Of a stretch of DNA of 64,000 bases, positions 50,608-61,040 are shown one piece after another. Below the pieces are notes generated by a model. It was not told the DNA's origin. It searched no databases and saw only the letters and a list, made by a program, of their open reading frames with translations. The DNA is from Allacma fusca (Eukaryota > Arthropoda > Collembola > Symphypleona > Sminthuridae). A program made the translations under genes and the position numbers. Every line of letters begins with the position of its first letter. Position 1 is the stretch's first letter. The DNA is taken from NCBI GenBank assembly GCA_947179485.1, contig OX359249.1:11098001-11162000 (forward strand), written 5' to 3'.

Positions 50608-53600
50608 TCATACGCGAATTTGATCTTCATCCAGTTCTTCATCTTCTTCTTCCTCTTCATCTGCTTGTTCCAACCACAACAACCACTGGTTGACCTAATT
50701 ATGTTAAAAACATTAAATTATTGGCCCGTGTTAATTGCGAACACAAAATATATGTACTAAATTTCTCATATATTATTTAGGGAGAACTGCATAAATGAGT
50801 ATGTTGAAGAGGCATGTAAAATCAAACAATTCTGCCGGTTAAACGACATTACAATTACAATCTACACAAAAAATAAAAATAGTGGCTTTATGATTCCAAG
50901 TATATACCTGAAATAGGGCGTTTCCTTTGCCTGGATAGTCATCACGTATATCTTCTTTCCATTTCAGGAAGGCCTCTTCTTCAATTATTTCCAGTTCATA
51001 CATGTTCATAAACCAGCGCAGCAGCATCACTAAAGAATTCATAAAATAGTACAGTAATAGATTTATTCACATACATTATAAGCTACTAACAGGTAGATTT
51101 CATAGCTATTTATATAGTGCCATGCAAGGTATACCAAAGACATGTGTATGTTATATATACCTTTTGGTGATTCAAGAGCAAACCAGGTCGCCTGCAAGGC
51201 ATATATAGCAACAACTTGAAGATCAACTCTATGTAGGAAATTTTCAATGACGGGCTTGAACTTCAAAAGAAGTTCTTTCTCCTTCTCCTTGGTGGCTTTT
51301 TCTGTTTGCTCACTTCCCAAATTTTGGCTCGTTTCCTACATCCATGACAGTAGAACATAGTGATAATGAAATATTAACGATTTGTCCTTCTGCTGAATTC
51401 TAGTCTTATGCACTGAAATAAATTAACTCCTAATGCTTACCGCGGTGACAAACTTGACGATAACAGTTACTAACGCACTGATAAAACCTTGAGATGTGTG
51501 ATAATCCGAATCAACATTTTCTTTAATCCAGGTGAAGAAGCTCAATGAATCAGAATTCGACTGCAAAGTACAAGGAAGAGATTGTAAGAACATGAATAAC
51601 TCATAACTACCAATATAAAAACCGATCAAAACGGATCAGAACTTCTTAGAGGTAAACCACTCACAGAAATCGTGGTATAAAATGTCATCATGCTTTACTC
51701 AGAAATGAAAACATGTGTAAAATAAAGGAATAACGATACATACCTGCAACTGCTTCGCCATTTCAGCTTGTATTTTTAACAAGGGGAAAAGAAACGATAA
51801 CTCCCTTTCTTCTAATATATCTGCCATCCTGTCCTTGGTGCGATCGGTTTTAGGTAGTGTATTCAACAAATTGATCTGTATAAAAAACGTCACACTCAAT
51901 GCCAATTGCAAATTGCAATATTTATAAAATATTGAAAAATCTCCAATTCGCTGAAATTACCTTGCTTTCGTCGAATAACTTAGTGACCTTATGTTTATCC
52001 ATTGTTTTACTCAATTGCTGAAGAACGAGCAAAAGGAAGGGATAATGGTTTCCACCTTCCATGGGTTCAGCTACTTCCGACAAACTTATGATTTGTTGTG
52101 TCACAGCGCGAGCTGCGTATGCAGCTACATAAGATTTGATTCGGGGAATATCTGCTTCTAAATCTCCCATCAGATCGAGCATGTTTCTGAAGGACTCTAT
52201 AAACTGAGTTCGGGTCACTAATTCCTCTTGAATGATGTACATGACAAGGGTGTAAACCCGCTCTCGTTCAGTTTCTGTGACATAATTGGTACGAATTATT
52301 AAACTTTACCAAACAAACTTACATACAAGATACAGCTAAACATACTACCTTGAAGACAAAATCTTAAAATCCATCGCAAGAACTGTCTACTCACCATTCC
52401 GATCCATGGCCTTGTTAAGCACTGAAGTTAGCATATCAGAAATGAAACGATCAGGAATCTTCATCTGCCGAATATCCTCAGCGGACTCGTTCTCATTCTT
52501 TCCCTTTATGAATTCTTCTACGATCTCCTCAACTCTTTTAATTACCCCTTCCTTCGTTGGTCCCTATAGATTAGATTCACAAAATTTAGCAATTCTTCTG
52601 AAATGTCCACGTCCAAACAGATGAATGTATGCTAATTGTAAGTACGATTTCTGTTATTACCTTTTCTTTCTTGGGCTTAACCTTCTCAACTGCATTTTTC
52701 ACAGGTGCCAAGAGCGGAGGTTCCTTAGGTAGTATTGGGACTGCAGGTTTCGCAGGTTGTAATACTTCGGTGTTAGCATTTTTCAGATTAGGGATGTAGA
52801 TCTGACCAACAGGAAACATTTTCATGGAGTTTGGCGGTGGTCTCAGCGATAATTCCTCACTTACAACTGGCATGGTTGCCGTCATTGCAGGAACTGGTGG
52901 CATCTGTGGCATATGATTTCCTCCTTGTTTCAAGAATCTTGGAGCAACCGGTGCCTTCTCGTAGCCTACGTAAATACAACACATTAGATTAGAAGATTTC
53001 TGCCAAAGGAAGTGGCTATAGATTCTACCGCAGTGAATTTGCATGGAAAGGAAAACTTCACTAAAGAAACCTACCATTGTGCATGGAATTATTCTGTATA
53101 TTCCGATTCTGATGGATGTTAATTGGGTTGTGATGATCCTGTTGATTCATGTAATGATTTATTTTATTATTCTTCATCTGTGGGTAGAACGATCCATTGG
53201 ACTGCATGTTATTCGGCATGTAGTTCCTCATTCCCCCAGCTGGACGATAGTTATTCATCGAATTACTATGATGGTATCCATTGGTTTCGATTCTAAAGCG
53301 AGGTAAATATTATTTTATGAATTTATGAATTCCAATACTATCGTACTGAAAATAAGTCAAACATATATATATCGTATATGTATATACTATTCAAATCCTT
53401 CATGGTTCGCAATTTTTAAACTTACCCCATCGGCTTATCTCCAGGTGTAATTACACCTGGACCAGTACCCAAACTAGTGACAGCAAGTGGGACAGGGGCA
53501 AATACATCCTCCATCCCAGTGCGGTTCTTCTTGTTTCCGAATCGATTATTGCGAGTTCTTGCATCTGAAAATAAATTCAAAAGTCGTAAATCTAAGACGC

Positions 53601-55525
53601 AATAAACCGTCAAGACTTACTACAAGTTATGAATGGTAAGTGCATTTACCGAACTGCAAGCTACGGATCACATCGCTTTGCTGATAATCCGTTATGCCCA
53701 TTTCATCCTTAGCTTCCCTATGAATTTCATCAATAGACTTCGGACTTTCTTTTCTGGAAGTAGACTGTCTTGGAAGCCAATGATTCTCACGAAGCTCTAG
53801 AACATCTTGGAGCATAAACCGTATCCTTGATGGAAGTTTGTCATTGATAGACAATTCTTTCATCCTAGCAAAGTACTGATCCATCAAATATTTGCCTTTG
53901 TCATTGTCCAGCAAATGTCCACATGTGCTCATTATTTGACAAAGGCATTCCAAGTCTTCCGCCTTCGTCTTCTTGACCAGCTCCTCGCAACATTTGTGGA
54001 GGATTGAGTGTGTGAGCATCTCCAATTTGCCGAGTTCTCCAATGAACTAAAAAGTAATTTACGCATTAGAACATGGAACAACTCATTCGTATTTATATAC
54101 TAACGACACGATAGCAAAGACACTTACTTTGATGTTTCCGAGCATTTTAAGTTTAGATATCTGTTTTTCCTCCTCCTCTTCGGGAGTGAGGCGCTCAGTT
54201 CTATGATCAAAGGCGGCCGAAGCCCGAGCTCTATTTTCGTACTCATCCTGGCACTTACTTAACAGGAGTCGACGAAAAGTAGTAGTATATTCTGGGTTTG
54301 GAGGATCAAAGTTGGGAACTTTCTTATTCAATTTCTTACATAATTGTGCGTACATACATACGTACTTGGGTTCCTGTAGTGCTTTTTCGAAGATCTGTAA
54401 CAATAATTACATTACAATAATTACACCGGATTTCTAGACTGCATCCCAATTACACATTCAAAACTATTAATGACATCTTTTGACTCATCCAGAAACATAT
54501 TCGAACTTACCAAGAGTATGAAACCCTTGAGAAGAACAGGGGAATCTAGTCCGATATTTATCACTTCATCGCTCAACTTATCGAAGGTCTGAGGAGTGAG
54601 TTTGTTGAGAATAGCACGTACCTAGGAGTAAACAAACAAATGGTCATCAACCTTACCCACATGCAATGATCTTATAATAACTGATCCAGCCTGTTTTCCT
54701 TAAAAAAAAATAAAGTTCAGTTAAAATCCACTTGAACTCTACTACAACTGATAAAACCTGGCATCATCCGGATAGGAATGTAGCTGATCCAGATCAGCCG
54801 TCCCTATACACACAAACCTCATTCTAACATTTCTACACCGTCGGAATCTGTTCAATATTTGAATGTCTCTTACTTTTCTGAACTTGACATCATCGCTATT
54901 TTCTGGAAGTGCATCTCGTTTAATAGCAGAAGGCGGAATCCATCTCTCATAGGTTGTGGATTGGGAACGTATTTCGTCCCTGTGGATCAACATTAAACAC
55001 ACGTCAGTCTTAATGGCGTCACAAAGTCCAAAGTCACATGAACTCCAACGAACTGAAAGGAGTTTACATAAATAGTTCTCATCACATTCAATGAACTAAG
55101 CTCTCGTACATATCCCCCCCAAAGCAAGGATGCGCAAACACAGTAATAATGTCATGCAACTAGGCATGCATTGACGAAAAAGCAACTACGCGGAAAAATC
55201 AACAGGCTTAAAACCTTCAACATTAATGCATATTAAAAATTATTGCGTCAAACTATTATAAACTATATACGACACATCAAGACTGCAAACAACGATACAG
55301 GAGATCGAACTACATCAAAGAGGAACGTTACATATATACATATACTCAAGTCAAAATGCACAAGGGTATGATTCAGTCATAGCCTTGAACATCTAGTAAA
55401 AATTATATTAAAACTCTAACATATAGTTACAATCAACACAAAATTATTATTACTGGAACTTCCACGACAACTTACCTGCCTCCTAAAATACGAGAAGCAC
55501 TCCCTTGAGCTACCGACCCTTCCGT
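50608..55525 (-). CDS. EIF4G2: Eukaryotic translation initiation factor 4 gamma 2 (DAP5/NAT1/p97), complete, 15 coding exons
   Basis: This encodes the eIF4G-like scaffold that drives cap-independent and eIF3-linked translation in the cytoplasm. It recruits eIF4A and eIF3 but lacks the N-terminal eIF4E- and PABP-binding part of eIF4G. Coding exons, 5' to 3' on the minus strand: 55525-55476, 54979-54874, 54621-54511, 54394-54128, 54046-53650, 53564-53426, 53292-53075, 52965-52661, 52563-52395, 52274-51961, 51875-51744, 51560-51441, 51335-51161, 51029-50908, 50694-50608. All introns are GT-AG and phases join without error, giving 2712 nt and 903 residues (human about 907). MIF4G spans about 50-270 (FRKVRAILNKLTP, LGNIKFIGELGKL, DQYFARM, IRFMLQD), MA3 about 532-660, and W2 about 720-890 (EIIEEEAFLKWKED, YPGKGNALFQV), ending in an acidic tail after residue 886. 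The linker at 311-531 is Asn/Gln/Pro-rich and keeps the family SLRP motif. Introns are 81-496 bp. The start is not ATG (separate entry). Gene identity and exon structure are near certain. Confidence 0.97.
55523..55525 (-). promoter_or_regulatory. EIF4G2: Probable ACG (non-AUG) start codon of EIF4G2
   Basis: The DAP5 frame is closed upstream by TGA at 55616-55618, and no in-frame ATG occurs until codon 103, inside MIF4G. The ACG here has A at -3 and G at +4. The residues it opens (x-E-G-S-V-A-Q-G-S-A-S-R) line up position for position with the start of human DAP5, where the initiator is GUG and A10-S11-R12 are the same. The only in-frame GTG (55601-55603) has a poor context (T at -3, A at +4). 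Non-AUG initiation of DAP5 is established in vertebrates and reported in other animals; ACG in this species is inferred. Confidence 0.8.
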
Positions 55526-55636
55526 TGTTATTTTATGTGAGACGAGTTTTGAAAAAGTGGAGTCGGGGACTAAGGTTATGGTCGCCAGCTGAATGGATGT
55601 CACCAACGGGGACGTTCAAAATGACAGGCAGAGACA
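55526..55636 (-). other. EIF4G2: EIF4G2 5' leader segment, ATG-free, with probable upstream acceptor
   Basis: On the minus strand a long pyrimidine tract (55639-55680) ends in CTACAG at 55637-55642, a strong splice acceptor, so a non-coding first exon probably lies further upstream. The 111 nt from that acceptor to the ACG contain no ATG in any frame, so a scanning ribosome would reach the ACG without passing an AUG. If no intron is used here, the same pyrimidine tract would simply be leader or core promoter. I could not place the first exon or the transcription start. Confidence 0.5.
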
Positions 55637-55639
55637 CTG

Positions 55640-56300
55640 TAGACAAGAAGTAACGTGAGAAAGAGAAACAGTTAGTTGGTTTTGCGAACAACAACTTCAA
55701 CTTGTAATTTTTTTCCCCTCAAAAAAAAATAAATATTTTTGTTCGTATTATCCAATTATAAATATATTATATTCTATTATACGGATCCTTCCCGCTTGAC
55801 TCTCAAGTCTCAACAATATAATGTCTTTTGTAAACCAACTCAAAATTGTAATTTTATAGAGTATAGGAACAAGGGGTATATTAATGAATACAGTCGGTCA
55901 GTTCTATAAATCTCTGGAAAGTTCGATGTGACGTGCGACGGAGCTACACCACTGATATCTCAGCACCACTGTATATTAAACACCACAGAACTCTGTGTAA
56001 CAGTACATGAAGTTAAGTAAAAGGCGAAGTCTGCTGGTCCAAGGCTTCACACACAATACTAATAATTGCAATGCGATGCTGTGTATAGAGACAAGTTCGA
56101 ACACCACCACAACCAGAATGCTTCTGACAGAGGATTGATGAGAAGTTTACTCAGTGAATCTATACCCTACACAGGGTTGCATGGAGAGTAGTATAAATAT
56201 CTACCAAATGTACAGGAGAAGGAGAAGAGAGACTATACATTTACATATATGTTGGAAGACTTGGGGAATAACTCCAGTATGTATTATCCTGTATGTATCC
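55640..56300 (-). promoter_or_regulatory. EIF4G2 upstream/promoter region
   Basis: The gene must start here or further right. The + strand is C-rich over the gene body (row 55081-55140: 20 C, 8 G by hand) and G-rich upstream (row 56221-56280: 7 C, 15 G), the switch expected at the 5' end of a minus-strand transcript. I recognise no clear TATA box. The whole stretch to 58.6 kb holds no gene I can support. Confidence 0.4.
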
Positions 56301-58651
56301 TGAACGGTGTACGAAGTACGAGGAGAACATGATGTAAATTAGGAACTACCATGAAGTGAGTAGTATTTTGTAAGTGCGAGAGAGGAGGCAAGAAGTTTAA
56401 GGGGTTCTTTTTTCTCGGAATTGCTCCAATGCTCATACGCAGATATTTCTCTATGTAACTGTATGCTGTATATACTGAATTTTTATTATATATATCTATA
56501 CATACTTTTATATAACAACACCATTCCATCCATATACACTTGCTTGTTGTGCATAGGGTAGTCTGGTAGTGTATTTAGGAGCTATCAGCTGTATTATCAG
56601 AGGCATGAGGCAGGCAGGCAGGCAGCAGGCACTGGTTTAAATAGTACCATACACTTTATACATATACTTATACCAGGTAGTTAGTTAGTATGTACAAATG
56701 TAGAAACTTATCGAAGTTATCTTCCTTTCCATTTAATAGCATGCTCAATAATGGTACAGTGCATATGGTAGATAACCTAACCTTGTTTCCCCACAATTTC
56801 AATGCATATTATACCTTTCAAGTGAACTTACGGTAAATATCCGCACATAATCCTATAACAAGAGCATGTACACCTTTTACTTTTGATGATCCCACAAATG
56901 AAGTAAATGGATGTAGGGGTTTATGTGCTATTAACTCATAAAATCCACACCATCAACTCTGTACAGAGTACAGAGTCAGTTCCACAGAGTCCGTAAGTGC
57001 ACAATTAATGGTAACGTGACATATGACTCCCTGTTTTCAGATTTAATTACATTTCTTGGTCAACTCTCCACTGATTGTGAGAGTTTCCAGGAGTCTGACG
57101 CGTTTCCCTTTGTGGACGTGGCTGGAGGGGGGATGTACATGAACATAAATATGTAGTGAGAGCTCGTGTGGGGAAACCTTTTGGGACTATTCTTATAAAT
57201 AATTTGACAATAAAATTCACAAGTTTTCTACCTGCATTTTTTCCCGGGATGATGTTTCCCTTTTCTTCTTAAATATGGGTTATTCAATGAAGTTGATAAA
57301 ATTACTAGGTATAGTTCCATTCCAGGAATATTATATATACAATATTTAACATGTCATAAAGTCTTTCAAGGAATAGATATGTATTGTATTCTGAGTAAAG
57401 TGGAAACCTGAAGCATGCGTGGATGTATCTATACCGGATACAATATAGTTTGGCTCTATCAAAGTCTACTTTTATCCTGTATGGATACCTGTATAATATA
57501 GTGCCAAATTCATAGCTATGACTATTCCAGGAAATTTTCATGGTATCTGGTAAAGCTTCAGGAGAATTCTGCGGAAAACAAACCAACTCTCATGCGAAAA
57601 ATAACTAGTGCATCCATTGATATGCCCGTATCATCTCAGGCGGGGTATACGTATGAGCTGTATATAGTGTATGTATGGTTATAATTTTTTCCGTCTGAAC
57701 TTGTTGGGTTGTGAAGGAAACAAGCAACACTCCACAGAGACATGATAATGACATGCATTAGATTTCTATCGTTGTACGCATCACGGACTTCTGGCTAGGT
57801 CGAGTTACTCATACATGGTGCAAAAATCACCAAGTGATGATGTGATAAACTGTAAGTACACACATGGGCTCAAGGTAAAAATCAATCTTTCAGTCGTGTT
57901 TTCAAGAACACAACGGACTGACACTGACTGCCATGCTTATTACGTCACTAATGATTCAAGGGGAAGAATATGATATCATCAGTTTCTCGTCGTCACATTC
58001 CCTATACACACTCCACAGCCTAAAGACCAACTGAATGATCTTGCGAGTACAGACTGCACTACTGTAAACTGCAATGGTAGTTTTACAGCAGAGTACAATA
58101 ATCTCCACGTTCTTTGGGTAGAGAAGATTTCGAATGGTAAAAACCTCATTACAGTTCACTGTGAATGGCAGTGCCAAATGCGTGGATGGGATTTTTATAA
58201 TGTAATGCCCCTACTTAACGGACTACACATAAACCCACCACAATTATTTATCTTTTTAACAGATGTACTGATGTCCATAGAGATTGACACAATTTTTTCA
58301 TTCATGTGAACATATGGAACAATGACTCGTGGTGAAAATAGGTAAACAATTACTATTTAATCTTAAACTTAATGGGCACAAGACTGAAAAAGGAGTTCTC
58401 ACATTGAACTCCGATTTCGATTTCTACTGTCATTATCCACAGTCGATATCAAATTAGTTCGTGGGTAAATATTGTTTCTCAGAAAGGCAAGAGCTTGAAA
58501 TTATTATGCTGAATGCTGATCCTAATATTCCAAACATGCTGTGTGCATCCACAAACTCACACAACGACCAAGGTTAACAAGGAATATTACAAGTAGAGGC
58601 AGCCATCCCTAACTACCACACTTAAGCTGTAAATCCATCCACTGGTAATAT

Positions 58652-58882
58652 ATGGCTCCTGGTTTCCTTCTGTTGTTGGCCCTTTGTTTGTCGACAACCA
58701 TTCCAACAGGTCAGGGTCAAGGGCCCTGAGGAATGCCATCGAAGAAATTAAGCCGACGGATAAGGGATGCTATAGCATTCAACGTTTCACCAAACAAGAG
58801 CAGCTGCCTCTATTACAATTACTGCTTCAAACAACGTGCAACGGAAGGACTACAGTGTACAGTATACTACTTTGTAAACTAA
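58652..58882 (+). pseudogene. Signal-peptide ORF interrupted by one in-frame TGA
   Basis: An ATG at 58652 opens MAPGFLLLLALCLSTT and nine more residues, a textbook secretion signal (short polar start, Leu-rich core). It then meets TGA at 58727-58729. The same frame stays open for 50 further codons to a TAA, with dibasic sites (KK, RR) and three cysteines (SSCLYYNYCF... then a third Cys), like a small secreted peptide. Without the TGA it would be a protein of about 76 residues. I recognise no family and no sensible intron removes the TGA. Other options are chance, a pseudogene, or a sequence error. The start context is mediocre (T at -3, G at +4). Confidence 0.3.
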
Positions 58883-58899
58883 GAATGAAATCAAGTAAA

Positions 58900-61040
58900 T
58901 CCGCATCCCAACGCAGCCCTACTACAAAGACCAATGTCCTATGTTGTTTGTTTGTGCTCAATCCATACTTAGTTTCTACAGTCGTACATTCGTTTTTAGG
59001 CTTACATTTGATGGCTTTTTATAGTTCCCACGTTCCCAGTTATGACAGATAACAGATTGGTTCTGTGAAAAGAAACTAAAATAAAAAGCTTTCTCCCTCA
59101 TATTCACGCACAAGTTTTTTCACCCCAGAAATGAATTTATGCGCAGCAATGTAAGGCCATACAGAAGACTCAGATGTGCTTGGCATTCAAGTACCTCTTG
59201 CTAATGTACTTAACGATAGTCTCACAAACATGAGAAAAACAAGTCATACATTGAGCCAAATTCAAGATTACTTACGCGGTCAAAAAAGTAACTGACACAA
59301 CGTCTTCAAGCTTGTATTAAAACAGTATAGCCCACCGACCGTTATTTTTACGAATATTTCCAAACTGTTCATGCCATTATTACTGCGATAACTTTTCGGC
59401 CCTGGCATGAAAATTCAATGGGACAAAACTATCAAAGTAATTAATGCGTATCATTGGGCTTACTTGAGTAAAACATCGGTAGCTTAATCCGTTTATTTAT
59501 AATTTTAGAACTACGTATGGATATGTCTAAAGCTGAGTTCAAGTATGGCACTTAGAGCCAGCAAAAATTCCAACGGTTAAAAGTATCTCTTGGCTGAAAA
59601 AGTGCCTTCATTTACTGATTGTGAGTTCAGAATATTTTTGACTTCCATTGAATTTAGGATTCCTTAAAATTCTCATTTGTTATTCAAAAGATAGCATAGT
59701 ACCGGCAATACCAAAACGGTATGAACTGATGTGGCTAATACACTTGTGAAATGTAGCTTCAGCTCAGGTTAGACGGAATGTAAGTTTTATGTCTGTGCAT
59801 TTTACAGTTTCAAATTCTCATACGAAACTTATTATCTTAGAATGATACAATTCCCTTCGACATCACGCCCTTGAATAATACCATAAAACTGTTCCCAACT
59901 TCACAAGGTATTCTTTGGCCCTCTGTTTCCCTGGATTTGAATATTTATTCTATTTATAAGGCCGAACACATGTACCCTAAGTTACAATGACGAGACATTT
60001 TGAAAGTAGTTCCAACGAGCAAAACGACGGCAACATGTTCTTCACACAGTATCAGGTGAATACTAATAGGATTTCTACTAAATTAGCAACCTAATTTATT
60101 TCATGTATCTCCACAATATTCTAAACACCCGAGTAATTCAACGCTAAACAGCACATCATTACTCCGAGGATATTGACTCCATAGGTTCGAGTTCATAAAA
60201 CTGAACTTCATCCCAGGAAAACGTCTCAGACATGGTCCCATCCCCAATGCATTTTTACTATTCCAAAAAAAATCCCCCAACATTAAAATACCGTTAACAT
60301 TTGTGAAACAAAGTCAAAGCAATAATCACTTAGTAAATATATTTTCACACCTAGAAATAAATCCTCATGCCATCAAAAACAAGACTACTTTCAGGATTCA
60401 CCCATACATATGTCTACCCCAAATCCTTCCATGAGTTGAAACACCTTACAAGGCCCTGGATTTCCCACTTCATGACCTTCAATATCTTCAACTTTAACAC
60501 ACACACACAAGGCTTCCTAACATTCAAAACGTCAAAACCTGACATACAACATTGCAAGTTCAAGAGTATTAATTTCACAATTAGAAAGGCCCTCCCTAAA
60601 AGGAATGATTGTCTCCCCTAACTGACTAATCACTTCCAATTACAGCATTCAGCCAAACAACTACCAACCAAACTAACATCCCATCCCTAAGAGTTTTATC
60701 CCAACTAAAGACTGGACCCGAATGAACTCACCGGATTAGTAGTCATAATTAGTCTCCTATAATAACTCACTACGCCTCCATCAAACATAATCCCCCCATA
60801 CATCCCTCCAAATCCTACAACTTAACAATTCAGACAGAAGTCAACTAACTCCCTCCACTACCTATCCCAACAGAATTTAAAATCATCCCTCCTGGAACCG
60901 TACACCTTCCCATGAATCATTTAAAATAAGTCTCTCTACAGACTCCACTACAACCCTTCCTGACAGCACCTATCCTCCCAAATTTCTAAAAAAAAAATGA
61001 TATTTCACATCTCGCCCATTCACTCAAAAGCTCTTAAATA
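58900..61040. other. Non-coding stretch, strongly G-depleted from 60.3 kb
   Basis: No gene supported. From about 60300 the + strand becomes very C-rich and G-poor (row 60661-60720: 21 C, 6 G; row 60841-60900: 23 C, 4 G by hand), as expected for the first intron of a leftward gene. The small frames here are by-products of this bias. Confidence 0.55.

Follow-up and report, generated by a model that had tools for sequence, protein, structure and literature searches.

Structure and identity of the DAP5 gene

The sequence analysed is a window of 64,000 nucleotides from Allacma fusca (contig OX359249.1, which is contig 5 of the assembly, positions 11,098,001 to 11,162,000), and all coordinates below, unless a contig is named, count from the first letter of this window. 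Its minus strand carries an intact DAP5/EIF4G2 gene with 15 coding exons from 55525 to 50608, comprising 903 codons and a stop, and all of its 14 introns are of the GT-AG type (Table 1). In the 903-residue protein, Pfam places MIF4G at residues 51-267, MA3 at 540-650 and W2 at 816-893, all above cut-off, and the best PDB matches are to human eIF4G2 (4iul at 8.1e-84 and 3l6a at 2.6e-103). As match scores, without a tree, these amount to 284 bits for 4iul vs 188 for the top eIF4G1 chain, and to 349 for 3l6a vs 74 for eIF4G1. Judged by its domains and best matches, this is DAP5/EIF4G2/NAT1 in its arthropod form, an orthologue of the vertebrate gene. With the start assumed at the ACG proposed below, just 50 residues separate it from MIF4G and no Pfam match falls among them; given this start, the protein lacks an extended N-terminal part that would hold eIF4E- and PABP-binding segments, and its N terminus before MIF4G is shorter than that of vertebrate EIF4G2.

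When the 392.7-Mb, 91-contig assembly was searched with the whole protein, 16 matches were obtained, 14 in the DAP5 gene itself and two on contig 8 with 34% and 26% identity, which are taken for other MIF4G proteins. The own-genome search scores best candidates only, and among the scored candidates (1 and 22) in this assembly there was no second DAP5 copy or retrocopy. Scans of viral_contigs and genome_contigs with the first 272 residues found no relative, as expected of virus and prokaryote sets. In the 64-kb window there was neither an Rfam match at gathering scores nor a hit in the tRNA scan.

Table 1. Features of the DAP5 locus, in window coordinates
Feature	Position	Strand	Remarks
Stretch where no ATG begins, any frame	55423..56007	-	flanking ATGs 586 apart
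Probable last 111 bases of the DAP5 5' leader	55526..55636	-	without ATG in any frame; 5' edge is a candidate acceptor
TGA closing the DAP5 frame	55616..55618	-	in frame, 31 codons upstream of ACG
Proposed initiator ACG of DAP5	55523..55525	-	context ATAACA ACG GAA
Coding exon 1 of DAP5	55476..55525	-	16 codons and 2 bases; donor CAG/GTAAGT after 55476
Exon 2 of DAP5	54874..54979	-	first five AUGs after ACG at +79, +86, +115, +136 and +139, all out of frame
Coding exons 2-15 of DAP5/EIF4G2, including introns	50608..54979	-	terminal TGA 50610-50608

The ACG codon and its context

The preliminary description of this DNA had stated that the DAP5 frame is closed upstream by a TGA, that no in-frame ATG occurs before codon 103, inside MIF4G, and that the ACG has A at -3 and G at +4. 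All of these were borne out on the minus-strand sequence, where the first Met is codon 103, enclosed by the Pfam MIF4G domain. From the TGA through the ACG, eight near-cognates lie in frame, namely ACG 55615, TTG 55606, GTG 55603, ATT 55594, CTG 55588, ATA 55579, ATA 55531 and ACG 55525, and the last alone combines a purine at -3 with G at +4. In any frame of the 482 bases upstream, near-cognates with this combination occur at -444, -313, -252 and -231, all above the TGA. The ACG is the best-placed near-cognate in the DAP5 frame.

ACG is usually a weak initiator. Compared with the best non-AUG context predicted in PMC9082881, the present one fits in AACA from -4 to -1, in G at +4 and in A at +5, and does not fit at +6; at -4, where C is named there for EIF4G2 and two other genes, the ACG has A. 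Since the context mostly fits the predicted best, the start may be moderately efficient, by analogy with the human EIF4G2 GUG start, which gives about 30% of the AUG version (PMC9789052). A helper hairpin at the ACG is unsupported, as four folds around it differ from mononucleotide shuffles by no more than about 1.1 sd, and folding against shuffles found no special RNA structure downstream of the ACG.

Initiation might instead take place at CTG 55588, ATA 55531 or GTG 55603, alone or beside the ACG, and would then give an N-terminal extension. The frame is open from 55615, and CUG generally initiates better than ACG. Moreover, a minor upstream AUU start is described in human EIF4G2 (PMC9082881). 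However, these codons have the poorer contexts, with C at -3 for CTG, T at -3 for GTG and A at +4 for ATA, and the vertebrate N terminus finds its best match after the ACG, so that we regard a start at any of them as quite improbable.

This match concerns the peptide EGSVAQGSASR directly following the ACG, and the letters of human DAP5 (ESAIAEGGASR, within residues 2-24). The two agree without gaps at 6 of 11 positions, E2, A6, G8, A10, S11 and R12, and the correspondence with the vertebrate N terminus claimed at first sight, including A10-S11-R12, is thus found again. When human residues 2-24 were compared against the whole stretch from the TGA into exon 2, the best ungapped match began directly after the ACG, in register with the human start codon, and the score was 34 in the DAP5 frame vs 12 and 16 in the other two; as the human protein has no residues before residue 1, this comparison is silent on a longer arthropod N terminus. 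Among 10,118 stop-free 11-mers drawn from the two strands of the window, none reached the BLOSUM62 score of 34, and the best scored 16. The best ungapped score was equalled in 0.055% of 20,000 trials when the query was shuffled, and in 1.07% of 20,000 when the human letters were, the latter being by itself not strong, while the register with the start adds support. Going by this alignment to the human letters, a near-cognate codon in strong context stands at the conserved N terminus.

The ATG-free surroundings and the probable 5' leader

The nearest upstream ATG in any frame lies at 56008, 483 bases from the ACG, and the nearest downstream one in the genomic sequence at 55422, and the resulting spacing of 586 is the longest of the window on both strands. 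When 20,000 sequences of 482 bases were simulated by a first-order Markov model, every one of them contained an ATG. In a genomic control of 18 stretches of 10 kb (180 kb), 4 of 6,834 ATG spacings reach 586 and 8 reach 483, and a single repetitive stretch, L020, holds all four of the former and five of the latter. In the control, 0.40% of positions are preceded by 482 or more bases without ATG when L020 is included, and 0.044% when it is left out; these statistics on the ATG gap, as well as those on Met and frame given below, were chosen after looking at the data. The ATG-free stretch, of which perhaps only part is leader, is what one would expect if upstream AUGs had been purged from a leader that ribosomes scan.

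The CpG observed/expected ratio is 0.94 in 55526-56007, the 482 bases 5' of the ACG, vs 0.59 in the window and 0.75 in the CDS, and this is possibly an unmethylated promoter stretch.

With an acceptor matrix built from the gene's own 14 introns, 12 AG sites from 55720 to 55479 were scored. The good acceptors are 55717 (7.6) and 55636 (7.5), and as both lie above the TGA, splicing there would add leader only. The site at 55636 is a good acceptor yet not a rare one, for the minus strand of the window has 676 acceptors scoring at least 3.0, of which 85 score at least 7.5. It falls exactly at the upper limit of the region marked in the preliminary description and would form the 5' edge of the leader segment, and if it is used, only 111 bases of the ATG-free stretch are leader. 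It is not the best acceptor nearby, as 55717 scores slightly higher. An ATG stands no more than 31 bases upstream of each of the four best upstream donors (score at least 6.3, within 55637-60000), and a leader exon that used one of these donors could thus bring in an upstream AUG.

The main alternative to be weighed here is an upstream exon with an in-frame AUG, spliced to 55588, to 55569 or inside exon 1, by which the ACG would become an internal Thr codon or would fall outside the mRNA. Between the TGA and the ACG the acceptors 55588 and 55569 score 3.0 and 1.0, and six sites inside exon 1 score -6.8 to 1.3, while the 14 real acceptors range from -0.9 to 7.6 under leave-one-out scoring, so that 55588 is weak but possible. 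That no acceptor below the TGA equals the real ones holds only with self-scored introns (lowest 4.4) and not with leave-one-out scoring (lowest -0.9). When ATG exons were paired with the acceptors 55588 and 55569 under a permissive donor threshold of at least 5.5, the 6.3 kb upstream provided six candidates for 55588 and three for 55569. However, every such arrangement has to use a weak acceptor, whereas the good two lie above the TGA; moreover, the vertebrate N terminus is best matched by the residues that follow the ACG rather than by those that would be added, and the ATG-free surroundings together with a near-cognate at the aligned start would be left unexplained. On balance we consider an upstream AUG exon improbable.

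AUGs downstream of the ACG

In the spliced mRNA, seven AUGs lie between the ACG and codon 103, and all seven are out of frame; the one at +86 has G at both -3 and +4. By frame the AUGs before codon 103 number 0, 5 and 2, vs 36, 24 and 6 in the remaining CDS (Fisher P 0.011), and Met is found at none of codons 2-102 vs 36 times in codons 103-903 (P 0.0096, given the Met rate of the latter). The gene has a later Met-free run of 104 codons, longer than the N-terminal one of 102, and the absence of Met at the N terminus is therefore suggestive only. The AUG at codon 103 has T at -3 and at +4, and a start there would cut into MIF4G, so it is not a credible alternative start. The visible exons offer no in-frame AUG for the full-length product, and an upstream AUG exon is unlikely.

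Probable initiation of DAP5 at ACG and its possible meaning

On the sequence evidence described above, DAP5 of Allacma fusca probably initiates at the ACG at 55525-55523. In this explanation, for which we infer the 5' end of the transcript, initiation at the ACG, Met at residue 1 and the exclusiveness of the start, ribosomes would load at the cap and move along a leader that has no AUG close to the start, and Met-tRNAi would read the ACG, making residue 1 a Met. Ribosomes passing the ACG would meet out-of-frame AUGs only, the first at +79 and +86, and hence no shorter in-frame form is expected and DAP5 would consist mainly or entirely of the ACG product. In vitro, an eIF4G2 reporter starting at GUG responded very sensitively to the addition of eIF1 (PMC10742948), and by analogy with the human GUG the output from the ACG may be limited and sensitive to stringency.

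The ACG contains a CpG and is one C-to-T change away from an AUG in strong context, which, together with the use of a single genome, could speak for a polymorphism, a base error or a C-to-U editing site in a species that normally has ATG. However, a non-AUG start is a reported state in other animals, Drosophila included (PMC9977666), the 15 exons are intact, and the lack of AUGs around the ACG and the frame of those further on suit a gene that has long started at a non-AUG codon, so that such an allele or error seems highly improbable.

As for initiation at the ACG itself, that non-AUG starts occur in other animals, as the preliminary description had it, agrees with the review PMC9977666, which covers vertebrate, ascidian and Drosophila orthologues; citing Takahashi 2005, it reports that the orthologues of Drosophila melanogaster and Halocynthia roretzi start at non-AUG codons. 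The phenomenon is therefore known already, even in an arthropod. The further proposals of the preliminary description, that this lineage swapped GUG for ACG, which would make GUG the ancestral codon, and that the inefficiency of the start is what has been conserved, stand as hypotheses. In the passages of the literature searched, we found named neither the Drosophila start codon nor ACG for EIF4G2 (PMC9082881, PMC9977666, PMC11149892, PMC7260771, PMC4528330, PMC9789052, PMC10742948, PMC10325891 and PMC12136000), and the main text of the FlyBase 'Rule-Benders' is without NAT1, ACG or GUG. What may be new is the codon ACG and its AUG-free setting with out-of-frame AUGs.

Several known systems can be set beside this one. 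Vertebrate EIF4G2 (DAP5/NAT1/p97), with its exclusive GUG, encodes the orthologous protein, likewise has no in-frame AUG start, and has a near-cognate at the same place, though GUG there and ACG in Allacma fusca. NAT1 of Drosophila melanogaster and Halocynthia roretzi likewise starts at a non-AUG codon outside vertebrates, including an arthropod, and this codon may or may not be ACG. TRPV6 shares the exclusive ACG initiation and the single protein, but it is an unrelated gene, described for human and mouse (PMC9789052).

A wider idea can be put forward tentatively, namely that the DAP5 start is a conserved device consisting of a leader free of AUGs, a single near-cognate whose context is close to the best, and downstream AUGs out of frame, which capture the ribosomes that miss it. 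Such a device might make DAP5 output report the stringency of start-codon selection (the balance of eIF1, eIF5 and 5MP), and each lineage may use its own near-cognate because any AUG would be selected against. If the codon varies by lineage (GUG, ACG and others) but stays non-AUG, selection would act on being non-AUG and not on the codon. For annotation, an automatic gene model at this locus may leave out residues 1-102 or add a spurious upstream exon.

Observations elsewhere in the genome

Outside the mitochondrial contig C91 (14,936 bases), full-profile COX1 matches occur at C12:58139742-58141079, C12:57617062-57618399, C5:4638854-4640191 and C8:22971501-22972841. TGA, which is Trp in the mitochondrial code, provides the sole "stops" in these four extra copies, and they probably stem either from a recent transfer of mitochondrial DNA to the nucleus or from mitochondrial pieces placed wrongly in the assembly. 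In C91 itself, a leucine tRNA (anticodon TAA) is predicted between COX1 and the lysine tRNA, in a list that includes doubtful predictions; this is the insect and crustacean arrangement. Compared with the standard insect order, the tRNA order of C91 (L018/L019) looks rearranged, with Tyr, Trp and Cys changed beside COX1, Asp beside Ser(TGA), and Leu(TAG) away from its usual place. Finally, the repetitive control stretch L020 (C5:5000001-5010000) contains 12-mers, TGACTCAAACTT among them, in about 20 copies each.
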